Source: an uncultured Treponema sp.
Lineage (GTDB): Bacteria; Spirochaetota; Spirochaetia; Treponematales; Treponemataceae
Direction: 5' to 3'
Length of the DNA: 50,709 nt
Assembly: GCA_946540605.1 (NCBI GenBank)
Contig: CAMNIU010000131.1
Span: forward strand, 1 to 50,709
Shown: positions 7,917-16,617 of the stretch, one piece after another
Layout of the letters: the number at the start of each line of letters is the position of its first letter
Position numbering within the stretch: position 1 is the first letter of the stretch
The notes under the pieces: model-generated
Told to the model about the DNA's origin: nothing
Databases searched by the model: none
The model's input: the letters and a program-made list of their open reading frames with translations, nothing else
Position numbers and translations under genes: made by a program

Positions 7917-9917
7917 TTATTTCTTTATTTTTCTTACAGGAATAATCGTAAAGTTAATACTCTTTTCTGTTTCACGGCCTGGTTCAATATTTACATCCCA
8001 GAATATAGAAGCAGTATGTGTAATTGCAACTGGTGCAATTTTATTTCCATCAAAACCAGGTCTATTATATTTTATAGGATTATAACAGAAACTGCATTTT
8101 TCATTAGGTTCAAAAACAAAAGAAACTCCGTTAGGCTGATTAGAAACGCGAACAACCTGTACGTTATTTAGTTTTCCTTTTTTATTTAATGCTTCTGTTG
8201 ATTTTGAAAAATCAAAATTGAATACATCACCATTATCAAGTGTTTCAATATTTATGCCTGATTTGGAGTTTAAAGTAAATGAAACATCGGAAATATTTGA
8301 TTCAACAGCAAATTTTGCTTTAAGAGGTTTTTCACTTTCATTACGGATAATGTACTGAACATACATTCCAGTTGAATTGATTACATATTTTTTGCGGAGA
8401 TAAATTGTCTGTCCGGTTGGTTTCCATACAGCTCTTGCACACAACTGAACTTCATGATGTTTTGAGATATATTTTAATTGTGAATACTGAATTCTGGAGA
8501 AAACACCATCCCCGGCTGGTTCACCACGAATATATAATTCAAGCTGATTTTCTGTAAAAAGATGATCAATAAAGAATCCTCTTTCATAATTATCATCATG
8601 TCCATCAAATTCAAATTTACGTTTTAAATTGTCTGCATAATTACAGTAATCTTTAATAATATCTAATTCTGGAACACTACCACCTGCAAGAGAAATATAG
8701 GCAAAATACTGTTCCATGCGGCAAACATATTCATCAATACCATCATTGTCATAATCATAACAGGTAACTGATTCTTCAAATTTACCGTCGCCTCTAAGCA
8801 TTTTTTCTGCTTCATTTAAATATTTATATGCCTGCTGACGATAGGTGGCATTAAACTGAGGTTCGTTTGCTGTACATAAAAGAGTCATTCCATTTTGAGC
8901 CTGCCAGAGTTTTTCACGGGCAGTCTTCTTTCTCATTTTGTCAGTTTTACATTGATTTACGAGAAGACTCAGATACATCATTCGGTTATACAGCTTTTTA
9001 CTTTCATTGAAGGTATTTAGAAAATCAAAAACATTTACCTGATATTTATTTGTCTTTTCTGTACTGCTGATTGAAGTAATTTTTGAAACTTCATCACTAA
9101 TTCCAATCGGAATATAAGATGGAATTTTAATTTTTACTCCGGCTGTTCTATAGTTATTTAAGGTTGTTAGTTTTACTCTTCCTGAATCGTTGGCCTGAAT
9201 ATATTTTCCAAGCTGTTCAAACCATTTTGCTTCGTTTAATTTTGAAACCATTTCTGGTGTGAGTGAAATAGCAATGATTCTGTCGGCATCGAGCTGAAGA
9301 TGATTATCCTTTTTTTCAACTTTTAAAACTGCTTTTTCAATGTTATAGATAAACTCATCTGGAAGCATCTGTTCATCTGGAAGTAAATCATTATAATACG
9401 GAAATATATCCACATTCTTTCCAAGATCACTCATAAAAATTGGAAGGAATGATCTTTTGCTTTCTGGAATAATTGAACTGTTTAAAATTACATATTCAAT
9501 TCCACAAGTATGAATGTTATTTACAAGAGAAGAATCCCAGCAATCCTGAAAGAGTGTCATACCTCTTGGACGTTTTCCAAAGGTAGCCCGAATTTCAGAA
9601 GTTAAAAGATCTATTTGTCCATTTCTGTCAGCAGAATTTAAAAGCGGAAGAAGCGGATCATTATAACCACCACCAAGAATTTCTACCTGTTTGCGGTCTG
9701 TAAGTTCACGAAGAATTGTAATAAGTTCATTTTTTCTTTTCTTAAAGAATTGAATTTGTGGACCGGAAAAGGCAAATGACATTGGGAATGAAGGATGTGA
9801 ATAAAGATATTTTAATACTGGCTTATAAATGGTCTGAAAGCTCTTTTCAAGAACTTCTGTGCTTTCTGTAAAAACAGGCACTGACTTTACAATGAAGCTG
9901 ACGTATATTGACCCCAT
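7917..9917 (-). CDS. GH57-like protein with DUF1926-like C-terminal domain (possible catalytically inactive homologue)
   Basis: 666 aa; FAFSGPQIQFF, EILGGGYNDPLLPLLNSADRNGQI, RPRGMTLFQDCWDSSLV resemble GH57 4-alpha-glucanotransferases; C-terminal all-beta region resembles DUF1926. Confidence 0.65.
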   Translation of the reverse strand: MGSIYVSFIVKSVPVFTESTEVLEKSFQTIYKPVLKYLYSHPSFPMSFAFSGPQIQFFKKRKNELITILRELTDRKQVEILGGGYNDPLLPLLNSADRNGQIDLLTSEIRATFGKRPRGMTLFQDCWDSSLVNNIHTCGIEYVILNSSIIPESKRSFLPIFMSDLGKNVDIFPYYNDLLPDEQMLPDEFIYNIEKAVLKVEKKDNHLQLDADRIIAISLTPEMVSKLNEAKWFEQLGKYIQANDSGRVKLTTLNNYRTAGVKIKIPSYIPIGISDEVSKITSISSTEKTNKYQVNVFDFLNTFNESKKLYNRMMYLSLLVNQCKTDKMRKKTAREKLWQAQNGMTLLCTANEPQFNATYRQQAYKYLNEAEKMLRGDGKFEESVTCYDYDNDGIDEYVCRMEQYFAYISLAGGSVPELDIIKDYCNYADNLKRKFEFDGHDDNYERGFFIDHLFTENQLELYIRGEPAGDGVFSRIQYSQLKYISKHHEVQLCARAVWKPTGQTIYLRKKYVINSTGMYVQYIIRNESEKPLKAKFAVESNISDVSFTLNSKSGINIETLDNGDVFNFDFSKSTEALNKKGKLNNVQVVRVSNQPNGVSFVFEPNEKCSFCYNPIKYNRPGFDGNKIAPVAITHTASIFWDVNIEPGRETEKSINFTIIPVRKIKK

Positions 9918-10028: not shown

Positions 10029-10634
10029 TTATCTAAATCGTTTTATTATTCTATAACAATATTCCCATATTTTAAAGTCTTTTTTATCATTCCAGGTAAC
10101 ATTTTCTTCAACTTTCAGCTTTGTACATGAAGTCATATCAGAAGAATCATTATTGCAAACAACCATTTTTTTTGTGTCTTTTGGAATCAGTTTGATTATA
10201 TGCTGAGGACATACAAGAACACATTTCCCACAACCACAACAATTGCTTGTTACAACAGCTGTCATATTCTTTATTACTATTGCTTCCTGAGGACAGATTT
10301 TTGTGCAGTCACCAAGACCAAGACATGCAAAGTGACAATCAAGTGCTGAACCATATACAGTTTTTGCCATTACACAGGTATACTCACTGTTATACATAGA
10401 ACGTTCAAGACTACACTCTTTGTTGCAGGAGCACATAACATAAGCTTTTTCTGCAGAAGGACTATATTTTTTTTCTTCAGGTAAAATAACAGGAGAAAGA
10501 GATAGCGGAACAAGTGGGTCTTCCTTTTTCTTATCTTCCTTGTTAATTGATGGAATAAAAATATAAAGTGTAAAAAAAGCGAGAAGAATTAAAAGCAGAA
10601 TAAAAATTACAAATAGAATGATTTTCAGAATCAT
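10029..10634 (-). CDS. rnfB: Rnf-like electron transport complex subunit B (ferredoxin-like)
   Basis: N-terminal TM helix; CLGLGDCTKICPQEAIVI and CCGCGKCVLVCPQHII; last gene in an rnfCDGEAB order. Confidence 0.8.
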   Translation of the reverse strand: MILKIILFVIFILLLILLAFFTLYIFIPSINKEDKKKEDPLVPLSLSPVILPEEKKYSPSAEKAYVMCSCNKECSLERSMYNSEYTCVMAKTVYGSALDCHFACLGLGDCTKICPQEAIVIKNMTAVVTSNCCGCGKCVLVCPQHIIKLIPKDTKKMVVCNNDSSDMTSCTKLKVEENVTWNDKKDFKIWEYCYRIIKRFR

Positions 10635-11194
10635 TGAATTGCCCCCGGATTAAGCCATGCAATATCCCAAACTGAAAGCAGAAGAATTAGAACTGCTAAA
10701 AAGATAAAGTAGAGACTGTAATATTTTTCATCAAGAAGTCTTCCATTGCTGCATACTCGTCTTCTAAAAGTAAGACTGAATGGTATGATTATCAGCATGG
10801 AAATGAGTCCACTCATGCTTATAAAAAGTGTAAAAAGTAGAGAGGAACTTTCTTCGATTGAAAGTAAAATCAAAAGGTAAGAAACTGCAAATTCAGATGT
10901 TGTATGTCCGGTTGTAAGGCGTACAATTCCTCCAAGGAAGGTGCTTATACAAGCATAAACAATAAAGCATACAAGAGGATATAATTCTGTTATTGTAAGT
11001 GGAACCAAAAGATAATATGTTATAAGCCAGGAAATTACAGCTGATGAAACAATAGATATTGCTCCCTTAATGTAATAAATCGGCTCGTTGAATTTTACAA
11101 TTCCAATTTCTGCAATTTTATTCAGACCGATTCCGTAAATAAGTACGACAGAAGAAAAAATTGAATAATATAAGAATGTGTACAAATAAATCAT
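10631..11194 (-). CDS. rnfA: Rnf-like subunit A (integral membrane)
   Basis: 187-aa multi-TM protein in the RnfA position of the operon; 4-bp overlap with rnfB. Confidence 0.6.
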   Translation of the reverse strand: MIYLYTFLYYSIFSSVVLIYGIGLNKIAEIGIVKFNEPIYYIKGAISIVSSAVISWLITYYLLVPLTITELYPLVCFIVYACISTFLGGIVRLTTGHTTSEFAVSYLLILLSIEESSSLLFTLFISMSGLISMLIIIPFSLTFRRRVCSNGRLLDEKYYSLYFIFLAVLILLLSVWDIAWLNPGAIQ

Positions 11195-11195
11195 T

Positions 11196-11807
11196 TTATT
11201 CTCCCCTGCCTGATATAATTCTTGCCTTATTTCGAATGAACATAAATAAATAAATTACAAGGCCTGTAAGAACGAGTGCTCCGGAAATTGAAGCAAAGAA
11301 CGTAAATATTCCTACCTTGTCTGGATTAAGAATTACCTTTTCAAAAATTCTATGATTCTTTCCAAAGAAAGTAAAAGTTCCATAACCTGCAATATCACGG
11401 AAAAGGAAGAATAAAAGAATCATCAATGAAAAAATAAGTGTACTGAAAAGGTTTGACTTTAAGCGTACTGGAAGAGGCTCTTCAAAATCTGTAAAAAGAG
11501 TATGTGTCAGGAATACAGAAACTGGCGGCAGATAAAGCAAAAATCCAAGGTTTAAGGCAATTTCTGTGTATGTAAGAACCAGAATCTGACGGTATAAAAG
11601 TGTAATTGAAATCATAAACAACATTACAAAATAGGTTCTGATTTCATTAAATTTCAACTTAGATACAAGAGAATTTACGAGAATTCCAAGTACTTCAAGA
11701 ATAAAAAGTTCAAGAATTAAAGTAAAGCCTAAAACAAAACGGCCTGGAGTAGGAATTGTGAGCGCCAGAAAAGACGCAATATACATAAAAGATTTTTTCT
11801 GTTTCAT
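11196..11807 (-). CDS. rnfE: Rnf-like subunit E (integral membrane)
   Basis: 203-aa multi-TM protein with FRDIAGYGTFTFFG resembling RnfE C-terminal signature; operon position. Confidence 0.6.
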   Translation of the reverse strand: MKQKKSFMYIASFLALTIPTPGRFVLGFTLILELFILEVLGILVNSLVSKLKFNEIRTYFVMLFMISITLLYRQILVLTYTEIALNLGFLLYLPPVSVFLTHTLFTDFEEPLPVRLKSNLFSTLIFSLMILLFFLFRDIAGYGTFTFFGKNHRIFEKVILNPDKVGIFTFFASISGALVLTGLVIYLFMFIRNKARIISGRGE

Positions 11808-11819
11808 AACTGCACTTCC

Positions 11820-12278
11820 CTATTTTAGCATTTCTACAATGCGTTGGCTCCAATATTCTACACGGCGACCTGTATAAGAGTTTTTAAGCTGAACGGCAAC
11901 TCTTCCGTGTAAAGATGAATATCCTTTAAAATCAATTTTTCCATCATTCTGTACAATGAACACACCGCAGTGAGGACCATAAAATGTCTGAATACGAATG
12001 ATTATGGCCTTACCTGTTTCACCACTTTTTTTATTTCGTGCATCATAACATGCAGCGCCTGCAGAAAGTGGATTTGTTATTCTTACTGACTTTCCAATTT
12101 CCCAGGTATCTGGCTCAGATTCTGCAAGTGTATATTCCACTGCAGCCTTAAGATTTTTGTCCCAGGATTTTTGAGAGACCTTGATTACATATATAAGAAT
12201 ACCAAAAACTGCAGCGGCAATTACAACAAAAATTGCATAATTTATAAAGAAATTTTTATAGGAAATTTCCTGTTTCAT
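11820..12278 (-). CDS. rnfG: Rnf-like subunit G (FMN-binding-domain homologue)
   Basis: 152 aa with N-terminal TM; GPHCGVFIVQNDGKIDFKGYSS...NSYTGRRVEYWSQRIVEML, similar in layout to RnfG; operon position. Confidence 0.6.
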   Translation of the reverse strand: MKQEISYKNFFINYAIFVVIAAAVFGILIYVIKVSQKSWDKNLKAAVEYTLAESEPDTWEIGKSVRITNPLSAGAACYDARNKKSGETGKAIIIRIQTFYGPHCGVFIVQNDGKIDFKGYSSLHGRVAVQLKNSYTGRRVEYWSQRIVEMLK

Positions 12279-13372
12279 TTTTCGGCCTCCTGTTCTGCTG
12301 TAATTTTAGCCGAATATTTTGTAATAACTTTTCCTGTTATCAGTTCGTTATGTCTTTCTTCAAAGACACGGATAACCATACTTATTATATTTGAAAGCAA
12401 AACTGTATATACCATTCCTACAGGAGAAGTTCCACAGCCAATAATCAAAAAAGCTGTAAAGCCTGAAAGAACTCCTAATAAAATTTTTCCTTGTACTGTT
12501 ACTGGAATTGTACCATACCATTGAATTAAGAAAACACAGCAGAAAAGGACTCCGCTTGTGAGCAAGGCAAGAATTATATCACCTTGATTAAAGTTACCGC
12601 CAAAAAGAAACGGTACAAAGAGACGTACAAGTGTAGCATATACAAATAAAAATATTGATGGAATAATCAATGAAAAAGCATTATCAGAAAAAATTATGAT
12701 AGATGAAATTATTGTCAACAAATTAAATCTGAAGGCCGGGATTATAGAATGTGAATCCCAAAAAAGTGAAATAAACCCTTCTGGAATAGTTATCTTGAAA
12801 AAATCAAAAATATATTTATTCAAAAAGGAAGTTATAGAACTGTCAAAACTATAGATAGGAAAAGTACCGTTTTCCAAAAGATATACCGAAGTATTTCTAA
12901 GACTTAAAAGTCCGCTCGAAACTTCAAAGTTAGGAAAATAATTTCTACCAACAAACCATGCAATAATAACTGCAATAGTAGCCGTATTCAGCCAGTTGTT
13001 TATTCCTTTAAATACAATACAACGCGAAACAACTATTGTAGAGAAAGAAATGACAAAAGCTGTAAATGGTGGAAATTGTTCAGGTAAAAGTAGCCCTACT
13101 AAAAGTCCCTGAATTGCAATATTCATTATATTGAATAAAGGTTCTTTAGAGATAAAATAGTTTACAGCAGATGCAGCAAGCGCACCTAAAAGTGTTGCTA
13201 GAATAACTATAAGTGCACTGTAACTTTTTGTTACGCCGAGCATAATAATCTGCAGTGAAAGCAGAATTATAAAGCGGATAGAAACAGAGGAAATTGACGG
13301 AATATTATAAACAAAAGGCTTAACAGATATACGGCCAGATTTTAATTTTTTTTCTTTAGATGAATTACTCAT
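12275..13372 (-). CDS. rnfD: Rnf-like subunit D (integral membrane)
   Basis: 365-aa multi-TM protein with IQGLLVGLLLPEQFPPF resembling the NqrB/RnfD family; between rnfC and rnfG. Confidence 0.7.
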   Translation of the reverse strand: MSNSSKEKKLKSGRISVKPFVYNIPSISSVSIRFIILLSLQIIMLGVTKSYSALIVILATLLGALAASAVNYFISKEPLFNIMNIAIQGLLVGLLLPEQFPPFTAFVISFSTIVVSRCIVFKGINNWLNTATIAVIIAWFVGRNYFPNFEVSSGLLSLRNTSVYLLENGTFPIYSFDSSITSFLNKYIFDFFKITIPEGFISLFWDSHSIIPAFRFNLLTIISSIIIFSDNAFSLIIPSIFLFVYATLVRLFVPFLFGGNFNQGDIILALLTSGVLFCCVFLIQWYGTIPVTVQGKILLGVLSGFTAFLIIGCGTSPVGMVYTVLLSNIISMVIRVFEERHNELITGKVITKYSAKITAEQEAEK

Positions 13373-13381
13373 AACTGTCTC

Positions 13382-14692
13382 CTATTCCTCCGTTATTTTA
13401 TTTTTTAGAACTTTAATAGTTTGACAAAGCGGTAATCTTGCCGGACAAACTGTATTACATAAACCGCATTCGATACAAGCCAGAGATGAAGCTGTAAATC
13501 TTTCATTCAAAAGCTTATAGTTTACAGTATGATTGTAAAGAATATCTGGAGAAAGCTTTACAGGACAGGCGAATCTACAGTTACCGCAATTGATGCAGGA
13601 ATAAACCTGTTCATCTGTCCTTCTCTTTTTTGAAAGAAATTCAACAGATTTAACATATTTAGTAATTGGAATATCAAGACTCTGAACAGAAATACCACAA
13701 AGCATTCCGTTTATGATTATATGAGCAGGATCTTTTACAAATCCTCCGAGGTGAGAAACCAGTTCACGCAATGTAATTCCAATTTTGACTTCAAGAAGAC
13801 AAGATGCATTAAGACAATCACCTGAAAAATGAACAAATCTGTCTACAGAAGGAATTGAAAGCCCCGCTGCTTTATAAACTTCATAGGCGGTAGAAGCATC
13901 AACAAATAAATCACTCTTAGAAATGCAGAATACGCAGGTACGTTTAAGAGGTCCTCGAACAAAGGCAGAAACAATCTCTCTTGGAGTTCCGCATGGATAA
14001 CGGCGGATATTCATTTCCAACGCTTTTATATCTTTATATTCTTCATTTTTAAATATTTCTTTATCTGCAAATTTCTGATCTATAGCAAAAACAATACCTT
14101 TTGCATTAATAGCCTTTGCAAGGATTCTGGCTCCTTTTACAAGCTGATCAAAATAAAATTTACTTATAAGTGAATCTGTAACTCTATAAGGGTCTTCATC
14201 AAAAAGTCTTACAATAATATTTTCTGGCTTTCTTTTAGCCTCAAGCATTTTTTCAATCTGAAGTCCAAGATTCTCTGGAATAGAAGTTTTAAAGGTATTT
14301 AAAACACCAAGCTCTTTTAACTTAGAAGGAATTTCAGCGCCAATTAAAGTTGATGCAGTTTTTTCTGAATGCTTTTTACCGAGGAATGAAAAAGCTCCTC
14401 CAAATCTGATTTTTACGCAAAATTCCTGTCTGCCATCTGGAGCTACAATCGGTTCAATTGCTGTTACTGTTCCTGGAACTGAGGAATGAATATATGTTTT
14501 TTTACCAGGAGTAAGTTCTGTTTCTGCAATAACATCACCTTCGTGAACAATATCTCCAACTTTTACAAGAGGTTTGTAATTACTGCCTGCTTCCTGTGAT
14601 AGTGGAATAGATACAAAACGAGGTAAAAAATCTTTTTGAGAATCTTTATAATCTTTAATAACAGACGAAACTATCGGGTTATTTGAATTCAT
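13382..14692 (-). CDS. rnfC: Rnf-like subunit C
   Basis: 436 aa; biotinyl/lipoyl-like N-terminus (VKVGDIVHEGDVIAE...SSVPGTVTAIEPI), CINCGNCRFACP and CIECGLCNTVCP ferredoxin motifs. Confidence 0.85.
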   Translation of the reverse strand: MNSNNPIVSSVIKDYKDSQKDFLPRFVSIPLSQEAGSNYKPLVKVGDIVHEGDVIAETELTPGKKTYIHSSVPGTVTAIEPIVAPDGRQEFCVKIRFGGAFSFLGKKHSEKTASTLIGAEIPSKLKELGVLNTFKTSIPENLGLQIEKMLEAKRKPENIIVRLFDEDPYRVTDSLISKFYFDQLVKGARILAKAINAKGIVFAIDQKFADKEIFKNEEYKDIKALEMNIRRYPCGTPREIVSAFVRGPLKRTCVFCISKSDLFVDASTAYEVYKAAGLSIPSVDRFVHFSGDCLNASCLLEVKIGITLRELVSHLGGFVKDPAHIIINGMLCGISVQSLDIPITKYVKSVEFLSKKRRTDEQVYSCINCGNCRFACPVKLSPDILYNHTVNYKLLNERFTASSLACIECGLCNTVCPARLPLCQTIKVLKNKITEE

Positions 14693-16077
14693 TTATTAAT
14701 ACCTTTTCTTATAATAATGGAAATATAGATAAAAAGTAATATAAAAACGCAAATAAACATCATAATTATGCCAAATAAATTTATATGGCTTGAAGTTAAT
14801 GCAGAATATCCGGCTGTAAAATCTTCTCCTTCTGATTTCATAACTTTTTCAACTGAATTAAATTTTAAGGAATCTATTCCATCAAAAGCTTCGCGGCGGA
14901 AACTGTCATCATAATGCATAGTTTGAATATGAGGCGTAATGATTCCACTATCTGGATTTTCTGTAAAGGTCTGGAACTCAACAGATTCTTTATTATCCAA
15001 CGACTGTTCATTGAGTGATTTATAAGGAGCAGTACGAACATTCCAGTTCCAGCGATAAAACTCTTCAAGTTGTGGAAGATTATCATTTTGAATTGATGAT
15101 GAGGATGGGAGTAGAAGTTTTGAACCTCGTGATTTTACAGAATCTGTTGAAGTTAAAAAGAATAATGCAATAACCAGTAAAGCTGCTGCAGTTGAAACTC
15201 CAAGAGTAACAGAGGCTTTTCCTGCAAATATAGAAATACTTTTTGCAGGACGAATAAATACCGGAACAAAAGGTCTTTTAGTACGAATATATTTTTCTAA
15301 TTCATAAATGCTTAATAATGCAGCTCCAGTACCGCAAGCAGAAACAATGAACCAGAATCCGGAAGCAATTGATCCGGCAAAAGAACAAACAATGGAAACT
15401 CCAAGCATTGCAGGAACAAAGCGACGGCTTATAAGCCAGCTTACTGCTCCCCTCCTTTTCCATACATTAGCTGCAAACAATAAACATAAAAGTACAAGGC
15501 AGGTAGCCGTAGCAACAGGATAAAAAGGATTACTGAATAAATATACCAGCGGAATCACAGCACCGCACGCAAAAACGATTTTATTTTTTACAAATAATAA
15601 TAACATTGCTGTAAGCAATACACAAATCAGAGGCAAAAGCCATGGATAAGATGCAGAAGTGTCAGTAACGCAGGGAATACCATAACTTTCAATTAATTGA
15701 ACGGCATCTCCAAGTTTTGACTTATATTCAGACGGAATATAATAAAGTCTATAAGCAGATGCTTTATCAAAAAAGAATGCTTTTCGCTTTGTTGTATATT
15801 CGTAATCTTTAGAGCCATAGTTCAGACGAAGCATGGAAATTTCAATTGAATTTTCATTTAAGGAAACAGGAAGAAACTGACCGGAAAGATACACCGCATC
15901 CTGAATTTCACATTTTGTCAGAGCTGTTAATATTTTTGAATCTTCAGAATCTGCTGGTACATAGAGAACATTATACTCTTTCCAAAGCTGTCCGGATGGT
16001 ACTGAGCGAAAAGAAATTAATAGAATAAGTGAAATAAGAAAAACAAACGGTGAAATAAACTTTGTATACTTATTCAT
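14689..16077 (-). CDS. Conserved-type membrane protein of unknown function, first gene of the Rnf-like operon
   Basis: 462 aa, N-terminal TM, central multi-TM block and C-terminal TM; stop overlaps rnfC start by 4 bp. Confidence 0.7.
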   Translation of the reverse strand: MNKYTKFISPFVFLISLILLISFRSVPSGQLWKEYNVLYVPADSEDSKILTALTKCEIQDAVYLSGQFLPVSLNENSIEISMLRLNYGSKDYEYTTKRKAFFFDKASAYRLYYIPSEYKSKLGDAVQLIESYGIPCVTDTSASYPWLLPLICVLLTAMLLLFVKNKIVFACGAVIPLVYLFSNPFYPVATATCLVLLCLLFAANVWKRRGAVSWLISRRFVPAMLGVSIVCSFAGSIASGFWFIVSACGTGAALLSIYELEKYIRTKRPFVPVFIRPAKSISIFAGKASVTLGVSTAAALLVIALFFLTSTDSVKSRGSKLLLPSSSSIQNDNLPQLEEFYRWNWNVRTAPYKSLNEQSLDNKESVEFQTFTENPDSGIITPHIQTMHYDDSFRREAFDGIDSLKFNSVEKVMKSEGEDFTAGYSALTSSHINLFGIIMMFICVFILLFIYISIIIRKGINK

Positions 16078-16083
16078 GGCGAA

Positions 16084-16617
16084 TTACTTCAAAAGAGAAA
16101 AAGAAAGCCCTACAAAAAAGCCTAACAGACAACCGCACAAAACTTCCATAGGTGTGTGTCCATCAACTTCTTTAAGAGGTTTATAACTTTCTATAATTCC
16201 CTTTTCCTTAAGGTCGTTTCCAATTTCGTTAATTTTTCTTGCCTGAATTCCGCTTGAACGTCTTACTCCAAAAGCATCACGAATAACAACAAGAAAAAAG
16301 CAGAGGGCAAAAATAAATAAATCAGAATGAAGTCCGTGACGGAAAGCAATTGTAACACAAAGTGATGTTACGAGAGCAGAATGGCTGGAAGGCATGCCTC
16401 CGGTGCGCCATAACATTACTTCAAATAATTCACCAAGAGAATGAATTTTACCATAAATAAGTTTTATTGCACATTTTATAAATTGAGCTCCGAGCCAGCT
16501 GAATATACATGCAAGAAGAATCGGATTATGTAAGAAAAGAATGAATTGCTCTATAAAATTTTCAGTTGGTGACATATAATTCCAAATAAAAAAATATACA
16601 TATATAGTATCACTCAT
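16084..16617 (-). CDS. Divergent PAP2 family (DUF212) membrane protein
   Basis: RTGGMPSSHSALVTSL...RDAFGVRRSSGIQARKINEI...GHTPMEVLCGCLLG motifs. Confidence 0.85.
   Translation of the reverse strand: MSDTIYVYFFIWNYMSPTENFIEQFILFLHNPILLACIFSWLGAQFIKCAIKLIYGKIHSLGELFEVMLWRTGGMPSSHSALVTSLCVTIAFRHGLHSDLFIFALCFFLVVIRDAFGVRRSSGIQARKINEIGNDLKEKGIIESYKPLKEVDGHTPMEVLCGCLLGFFVGLSFSLLK

Follow-up and report, generated by a model that had tools for sequence, protein, structure and literature searches.

An Rnf-derived operon of treponemes that has lost most cofactor sites and may serve a non-redox role with a new membrane subunit

What does an Rnf complex do once the sites that carry its electrons are gone? 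The question is raised by a stretch of DNA from an uncultured Treponema sp. (contig CAMNIU010000131.1 of assembly GCA_946540605.1; 50,709 nucleotides, all of it referred to here as the window). An initial annotation, made from the letters alone, had described in it a set of minus-strand genes in the order rnfCDGEAB that appeared to lack most membrane and flavin redox motifs. We compared these genes with related loci in the family Treponemataceae and in the class Spirochaetia. Judged from sequence, they probably encode an Rnf-derived complex that does not carry out transmembrane electron transfer and that was co-opted, together with an additional membrane protein, X, for a non-redox role.

Layout and homology of the operon

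The gene order, strand, and tight junctions were as first described. Every open reading frame (ORF) is intact, the D/G and A/B pairs overlap by 4 bp, and the remaining junctions from C to B are gaps of no more than 13 bp. However, the six genes are not the whole operon. The gene for X, which had been overlooked, overlaps rnfC by 4 bp, and the operon therefore begins one gene earlier, in the order X-C-D-G-E-A-B:

14689..16077, minus strand: X, a membrane protein of 462 amino acids (aa), first gene of the operon and new partner of the complex
13382..14692, minus strand: RnfC-like protein, 436 aa, with barrel-sandwich, Rossmann-like, and SLBB domains (TIGR01945, 197 bits)
12275..13372, minus strand: RnfD-like protein, 365 aa (PF03116, 101 bits)
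11820..12278, minus strand: RnfG-like protein, 152 aa, a transmembrane (TM) helix and a beta domain, flavinylation motif absent
11196..11807, minus strand: RnfE-like protein, 203 aa, cysteine-free
10631..11194, minus strand: RnfA-like protein, 187 aa, no cysteine at the [2Fe-2S] positions
10029..10634, minus strand: RnfB-like protein, 201 aa, with a TM helix, the RnfC-interface cysteines, and one 4Fe-4S dicluster (FdII) retained

RnfC aligned end to end with its counterpart in the C. tetanomorphum complex (7zc6_C, E 4.6e-46). Pfam and NCBIfam searches gave no convincing family match for RnfG, RnfE, or RnfA of the window; family profiles established A and E as homologs of canonical RnfA/RnfE (E about 1e-22 and 1e-29). 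The sequence match of G to RnfG was weak (hhalign E 0.005). Its AlphaFold model, with a predicted local distance difference test score (pLDDT) of 91.5, ranked RnfG chains first, second, and fourth among 350,542 PDB chains, at non-significant E values of 0.06 to 0.18 that make homology by fold suggestive only. With that reservation for G, six homologous Rnf subunits sit in one operon.

X consists of an N-terminal TM segment, a domain of about 110 aa, a TM bundle, a second soluble domain, and a C-terminal TM segment (AlphaFold pLDDT 89.8). It had no match in Pfam or NCBIfam, none in a PDB sequence search, and none at E<1e-3 in a PDB fold search. Its weak fold matches to SecDF/RND proteins (E 6e-3, TM score 0.25) were not accepted as homology.

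Cofactor sites lost and kept

In the canonical complex, electrons pass from ferredoxin to RnfB, the RnfA/E [2Fe-2S] cluster, the flavin mononucleotide (FMN) of RnfG, and the FMN and riboflavin of RnfD, and then through the RnfC clusters and the RnfC FMN to NAD+ (PMC12174285, PMC9588780). We followed these sites through 80 Treponemataceae loci, the window included; L122, a poor match in which X and G were not found, was excluded.

The pattern first read in RnfC extends to the whole set. The GGAGFP-type FMN motif and the ECEPY segment were lost across the 80 loci, and all eight iron-sulfur (Fe-S) cysteines were retained in 80/80. In the window, both [4Fe-4S] motifs are present (CINCGNCRFACP and CIECGLCNTVCP), and NTFKTSIP and DEDPY stand where the canonical FMN/NAD(H) site has GGAGFP and ECEP. 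The D..(S/T)GAT-type flavinylation motif was absent from both RnfD and RnfG (0/80 each), as had been proposed; RnfD of the window has lost the flavinylation threonine together with GSIGET. The TGRR reported in place of the RnfG motif did not hold up as a conserved feature, the C-terminal segment of G being merely variable.

The membrane cluster has gone as well. Neither [2Fe-2S] cysteine of RnfA was found in any locus (C25, 0/80; C113, 0/80). RnfE, correctly described as cysteine-free in the window, kept C26 in 17/80 loci, all of basal lineages, and C109 in 1/80. RnfB of the window has its ferredoxin cysteine motifs, and a Pfam search and alignment both bore out the absence of its N-terminal FdI (PF04060); the C-terminal FdIII is missing too. 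Neither the PF04060 shuttle domain nor the polyferredoxin character of canonical Rnf was found. FdI would deliver electrons to RnfA/E, and its absence fits that of the RnfA/E cluster. All that remains of the canonical electron path is the clusters of RnfC and the portion of RnfB that faces RnfC.

The alignments, together with a flavinylation-motif search over all seven proteins of the 80 loci, ruled out that the motifs are present and merely shifted: the search found none, and on canonical copies it returned DAISSAT/DAISGAT. No alternative conserved redox residues were found in the membrane subunits or in X. X has no conserved Cys or His and was rejected as a redox partner on this ground and for want of a PDB sequence or fold match. 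Other residues have become fixed in the lineage, namely N185, P197, G199, and PAFR(Y/F)N in RnfD, the last in place of canonical GxGET, and NTF and DxDP in RnfC, where DxDP replaces ECEP and the YP.G segment is retained.

Conservation and intermediates in Spirochaetia

As the initial annotation had argued, the operon is not simply decaying. The ratio of nonsynonymous to synonymous substitution (dN/dS) between the window and G107 was 0.035 to 0.097 for all seven genes, which is strong purifying selection. The divergent RnfD was found in 146/146 Treponemataceae genomes searched; the weakest few of these matches may be canonical RnfD from incomplete genomes. The order X-C-D-G-E-A-(B) was maintained over the 80 loci, with ORFs intact in essentially all. 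X was co-conserved in 78/80 and RnfB in 56/80; both are missing from T. pallidum, and RnfB also from the T. denticola-like group and elsewhere. Two further genes flank the operon in the loci read in detail, and in the window they are:

16084..16617, minus strand: DUF212/divergent PAP2 family protein (PF02681, 3.9e-40), a syntenic neighbor that adjoins X in Borreliaceae too
7917..9917, minus strand: GH57-type 4-alpha-glucanotransferase (PF03065, 6e-22), a syntenic neighbor

It had been proposed to look in the same genome for a canonical Rnf and an ApbE, and both were found. Contig C158 carries a second, full rnfCDGEAB with GMGGASFP, ECEPY, DAISSAT, DAISGAT, and all membrane cysteines, so the redox function is covered elsewhere in this organism. 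Only the C158 pair passed the gathering cut-off of PF02508 (canonical RnfA/E) in this genome; RnfA and RnfE of the window did not. In 7 of the 22 family genomes checked, T. pallidum included, there was no PF02508 match and the divergent operon was retained. Three genomes (G053, G098, and G013) have the stripped operon and no match to either canonical RnfA/E or ApbE.

Beyond what the initial annotation covered, the locus is conserved class-wide and exists in a cofactor-complete ancestral form. Profiles of X detected it throughout Spirochaetia, and among the matches listed, all those outside the window's order belonged to this class. In families f14, f56, f57, and f58, X is followed at the same locus by an Rnf with largely intact cofactor motifs; GH57 follows the f14 locus, which shares flanking genes with the treponeme locus. 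The f9 member L187 has also retained the RnfC FMN motif and the RnfE cysteines. Intermediate forms occupy the X-linked locus in f2, f3, f4, f5, and f55. The RnfC FMN site is lost and the membrane cysteines are mostly retained in f4 and f2, and most of the membrane path is lost in f3, f5, f7, and f16. Several intermediate families pass the PF02508 cut-off, at 25 to 93 bits. At L186 and L192, X alone was found, and C, D, E, and A were not seen within the stretch examined. RnfC of L180 (G422, f55) groups near canonical forms, yet it has lost the FMN motif, and the membrane cysteines of this locus are gone; it is possibly an independent, younger instance of the same stripping.

G442 and G401, whose X-linked loci retain the motifs, had two PF02508 matches only. 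The f2 and f4 genomes with degenerate X-linked copies had six and thus additional Rnf sets, a pattern consistent with release from constraint following duplication. Six matches, equivalent to three Rnf/Nqr-type loci per genome, occur in many spirochetes outside Treponemataceae (G381, G205, G430, G415, G453, G407, G277, G192, G393, G390, and G422). In the RnfC tree, unlinked canonical RnfC formed one clade (100/100) apart from X-linked RnfC; its backbone was unresolved, which leaves the number of independent losses unsettled.

Borreliaceae carry a descendant. An RnfC::RnfD fusion was present as a single copy in 36/36 genomes tested, and in both loci read, it sits between X and an RnfA-like protein; at L165, DUF212 precedes X and prfB follows the RnfA-like gene. 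(L161 was rejected as a false X locus of G382, the true one being L197.) The RnfC part of the fusion matched the profile to residue 340 (E 2e-42) and ends before the Fe-S domain. When profiles were compared, the C-terminal half matched divergent RnfD (E 3.8e-9 over 333 columns). No CxxCxxCxxxC motif was present in any fusion examined, and neither PF02508 nor ApbE had a match in two Borreliaceae genomes searched. Borrelia is independent of iron. By gene order we take the locus to be BB0070-BB0073, with the uncharacterized genes apparently BB0071-BB0073. A literature search on BB0072 gave no match. One study did not recover a B. burgdorferi bb0071 transposon mutant, among others, from larval ticks (PMC6516651), which may reflect a bottleneck.

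Function of the stripped complex

The complex belongs to the Rnf lineage but is not an Rnf by the features that define function. It shares with Rnf (RnfABCDGE; PDB 7zc6, 9eri, and 8ahx) the gene order, subunit sizes, topology, and both RnfC [4Fe-4S] motifs, and its C, D, E, A, and B are homologous to the Rnf subunits. It differs in lacking the RnfC FMN site, the covalent flavin sites of D and G, and the A/E [2Fe-2S] site, in a truncated or absent RnfB, and in the addition of X. We infer that it does not move electrons through the membrane and that, together with X, it has a non-redox function. The initial annotation had proposed a repurposed complex, with either a different electron path or a non-redox assembly. 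The repurposing stands, and the second option is better supported, because there are no alternative conserved redox residues and because Borreliaceae keep the complex with no Fe-S motif in any fusion examined.

The ancestor would have been an Rnf operon that acquired X, and some families still have a fully equipped Rnf. The RnfC FMN at the NAD site, the RnfD/RnfG flavins, the RnfA/E [2Fe-2S] site, and the shuttle domain of RnfB were lost in the treponeme lineage and apparently, in parallel, in others. This leaves Treponemataceae with a cytoplasmic Fe-S stub (RnfC and usually RnfB) atop a presumably redox-silent membrane module; in Borreliaceae, even the stub has been lost. We consider it an evenly balanced proposition that a redox pump was converted, by steps and in several lineages, to a membrane machine free of cofactors (X plus RnfC/D/A). 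This machine would have been kept in much of Spirochaetia, including Borrelia and T. pallidum (where X is absent), and would use the former ion path, or a former conformational switch, for a non-redox purpose.

Most likely, the RnfD/RnfA(E) body would move ions or solutes or control such movement, and the Fe-S domain would be a regulatory or structural part that the complex can do without. This leading, still tentative mechanism rests on, and is limited by, the RnfD residues that are retained. In C. tetanomorphum RnfD, Asn124, Glu185, and Asp248 were named as ion-path residues (PMC9588780); their equivalents in the C158 RnfD are N122, E191, and D252. The Asn124 equivalent was retained in 12/12 Borreliaceae, 53/55 members of the window's clade (the window among them), and 20/25 basal treponemes. 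The Asp248 equivalent was D or E in 12/12 Borreliaceae, in 24/25 basal treponemes (T. pallidum among them), and in the other stripped families. The Glu185 equivalent was lost in all treponemes and Borreliaceae. Part of the putative Na+ path has thus survived the loss of flavins in most lineages, with both the Asn and the acid kept in T. pallidum and Borrelia; within the window's clade, only Asn124 represents it.

Four points weigh against a non-redox, ion-moving complex. The Asp248 equivalent is Trp in 45/55 members of the window's clade, and in the window itself, which runs counter to a conserved ion site and makes the ion part tentative there. The invariant RnfC Fe-S cysteines of Treponemataceae hint at a remaining redox or iron-sensing role. 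RnfG, an electron shuttle, is retained in treponemes even though it has no flavin motif. Finally, non-covalent flavins might occupy new sites.

The Fe-S remnants of RnfB and RnfC could instead form a shortened cytoplasmic path, from RnfB through the two RnfC clusters to a soluble acceptor, with the membrane part as a mere anchor. RnfB does retain the RnfC-interface cysteines and the FdII dicluster despite the loss of the domain that serves RnfA/E, and RnfC keeps its Fe-S cysteines throughout the 80 loci. However, several lineages, the T. denticola-like and T. pallidum groups among them, have no RnfB, Borreliaceae retain the complex after losing every cluster, and X, D, A, and E, equally strongly conserved, would have no role. 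We regard this path as unlikely. Less likely again is an Rnf that is still a redox-driven ion translocator and uses flavins bound non-covalently, or cofactors at other new sites, in the same subunits. The modified RnfC pocket persists, and T. pallidum, which has no canonical Rnf, retains ApbE and was proposed to use a noncanonical RNF (PMC7512555). Against this stand the lack of any conserved Cys column in A and E, the absence of the flavinylation motif from all seven proteins, the replacement of GxGET, and the missing RnfB of T. pallidum. A decaying remnant of a duplicated Rnf operon, as the lost motifs and the canonical Rnf of most treponemes might suggest, is ruled out for practical purposes by the low dN/dS and intact ORFs, by the newly fixed residues, and by retention in the genome-reduced T. 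pallidum and Borreliaceae.

The non-redox reading bears on the energetics of T. pallidum. For this organism, a noncanonical RNF has been proposed that would act as a flavin-based flavodoxin:NAD+ pump (PMC7512555, PMC11717252). The sole Rnf-like operon that we found there is the ortholog of the window operon, of the stripped type and without RnfB. The sites needed for flavodoxin:NAD+ transfer are absent from it. We therefore predict from sequence that the operon does not encode a pump of this kind, and the proposal is undercut, since it would depend on an operon without known sites for this transfer. A literature search on TP0148-TP0152 gave no match. T. pallidum (G021) retains ApbE, but its operon has no flavinylation motif and there is no canonical Rnf, so the ApbE target there must be another protein. 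This ApbE is identical over 340 residues to PDB 4ifu, which we take to be the T. pallidum flavin-trafficking protein.

Among known systems, Na+-NQR shares the membrane core family, and its NqrA is an RnfC relative without cofactors (PMC12174285), which sets a precedent for an RnfC that carries no redox groups. However, Na+-NQR keeps the core flavins and [2Fe-2S] and has NqrF, whereas the window complex lost precisely the core cofactors. E. coli Rsx (RsxABCDGE) is, like the window complex, an Rnf that serves something other than energy conservation; unlike it, Rsx retains the cofactor sites. In our literature search, we found neither the stripped complex nor X nor the descendant in Borrelia described, and the present comparison gives the uncharacterized, universally retained Borrelia genes their first family context. 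Rnf is regarded as a defined redox pump. Across the class Spirochaetia, its body has persisted beyond its cofactors, and the living intermediates at one syntenic locus make it possible to tell apart what the Rnf/NQR fold does with and without redox chemistry.

One observation concerns the canonical operons of other treponemes. The canonical rnfG of L124 and L131 (and, by length, of L127, L128, and L130) is an ORF of about 374 to 387 aa with two RnfG matches; two of these long copies have two SGAT motifs each, which suggests that RnfG is duplicated in tandem there and has two sites for flavinylation.

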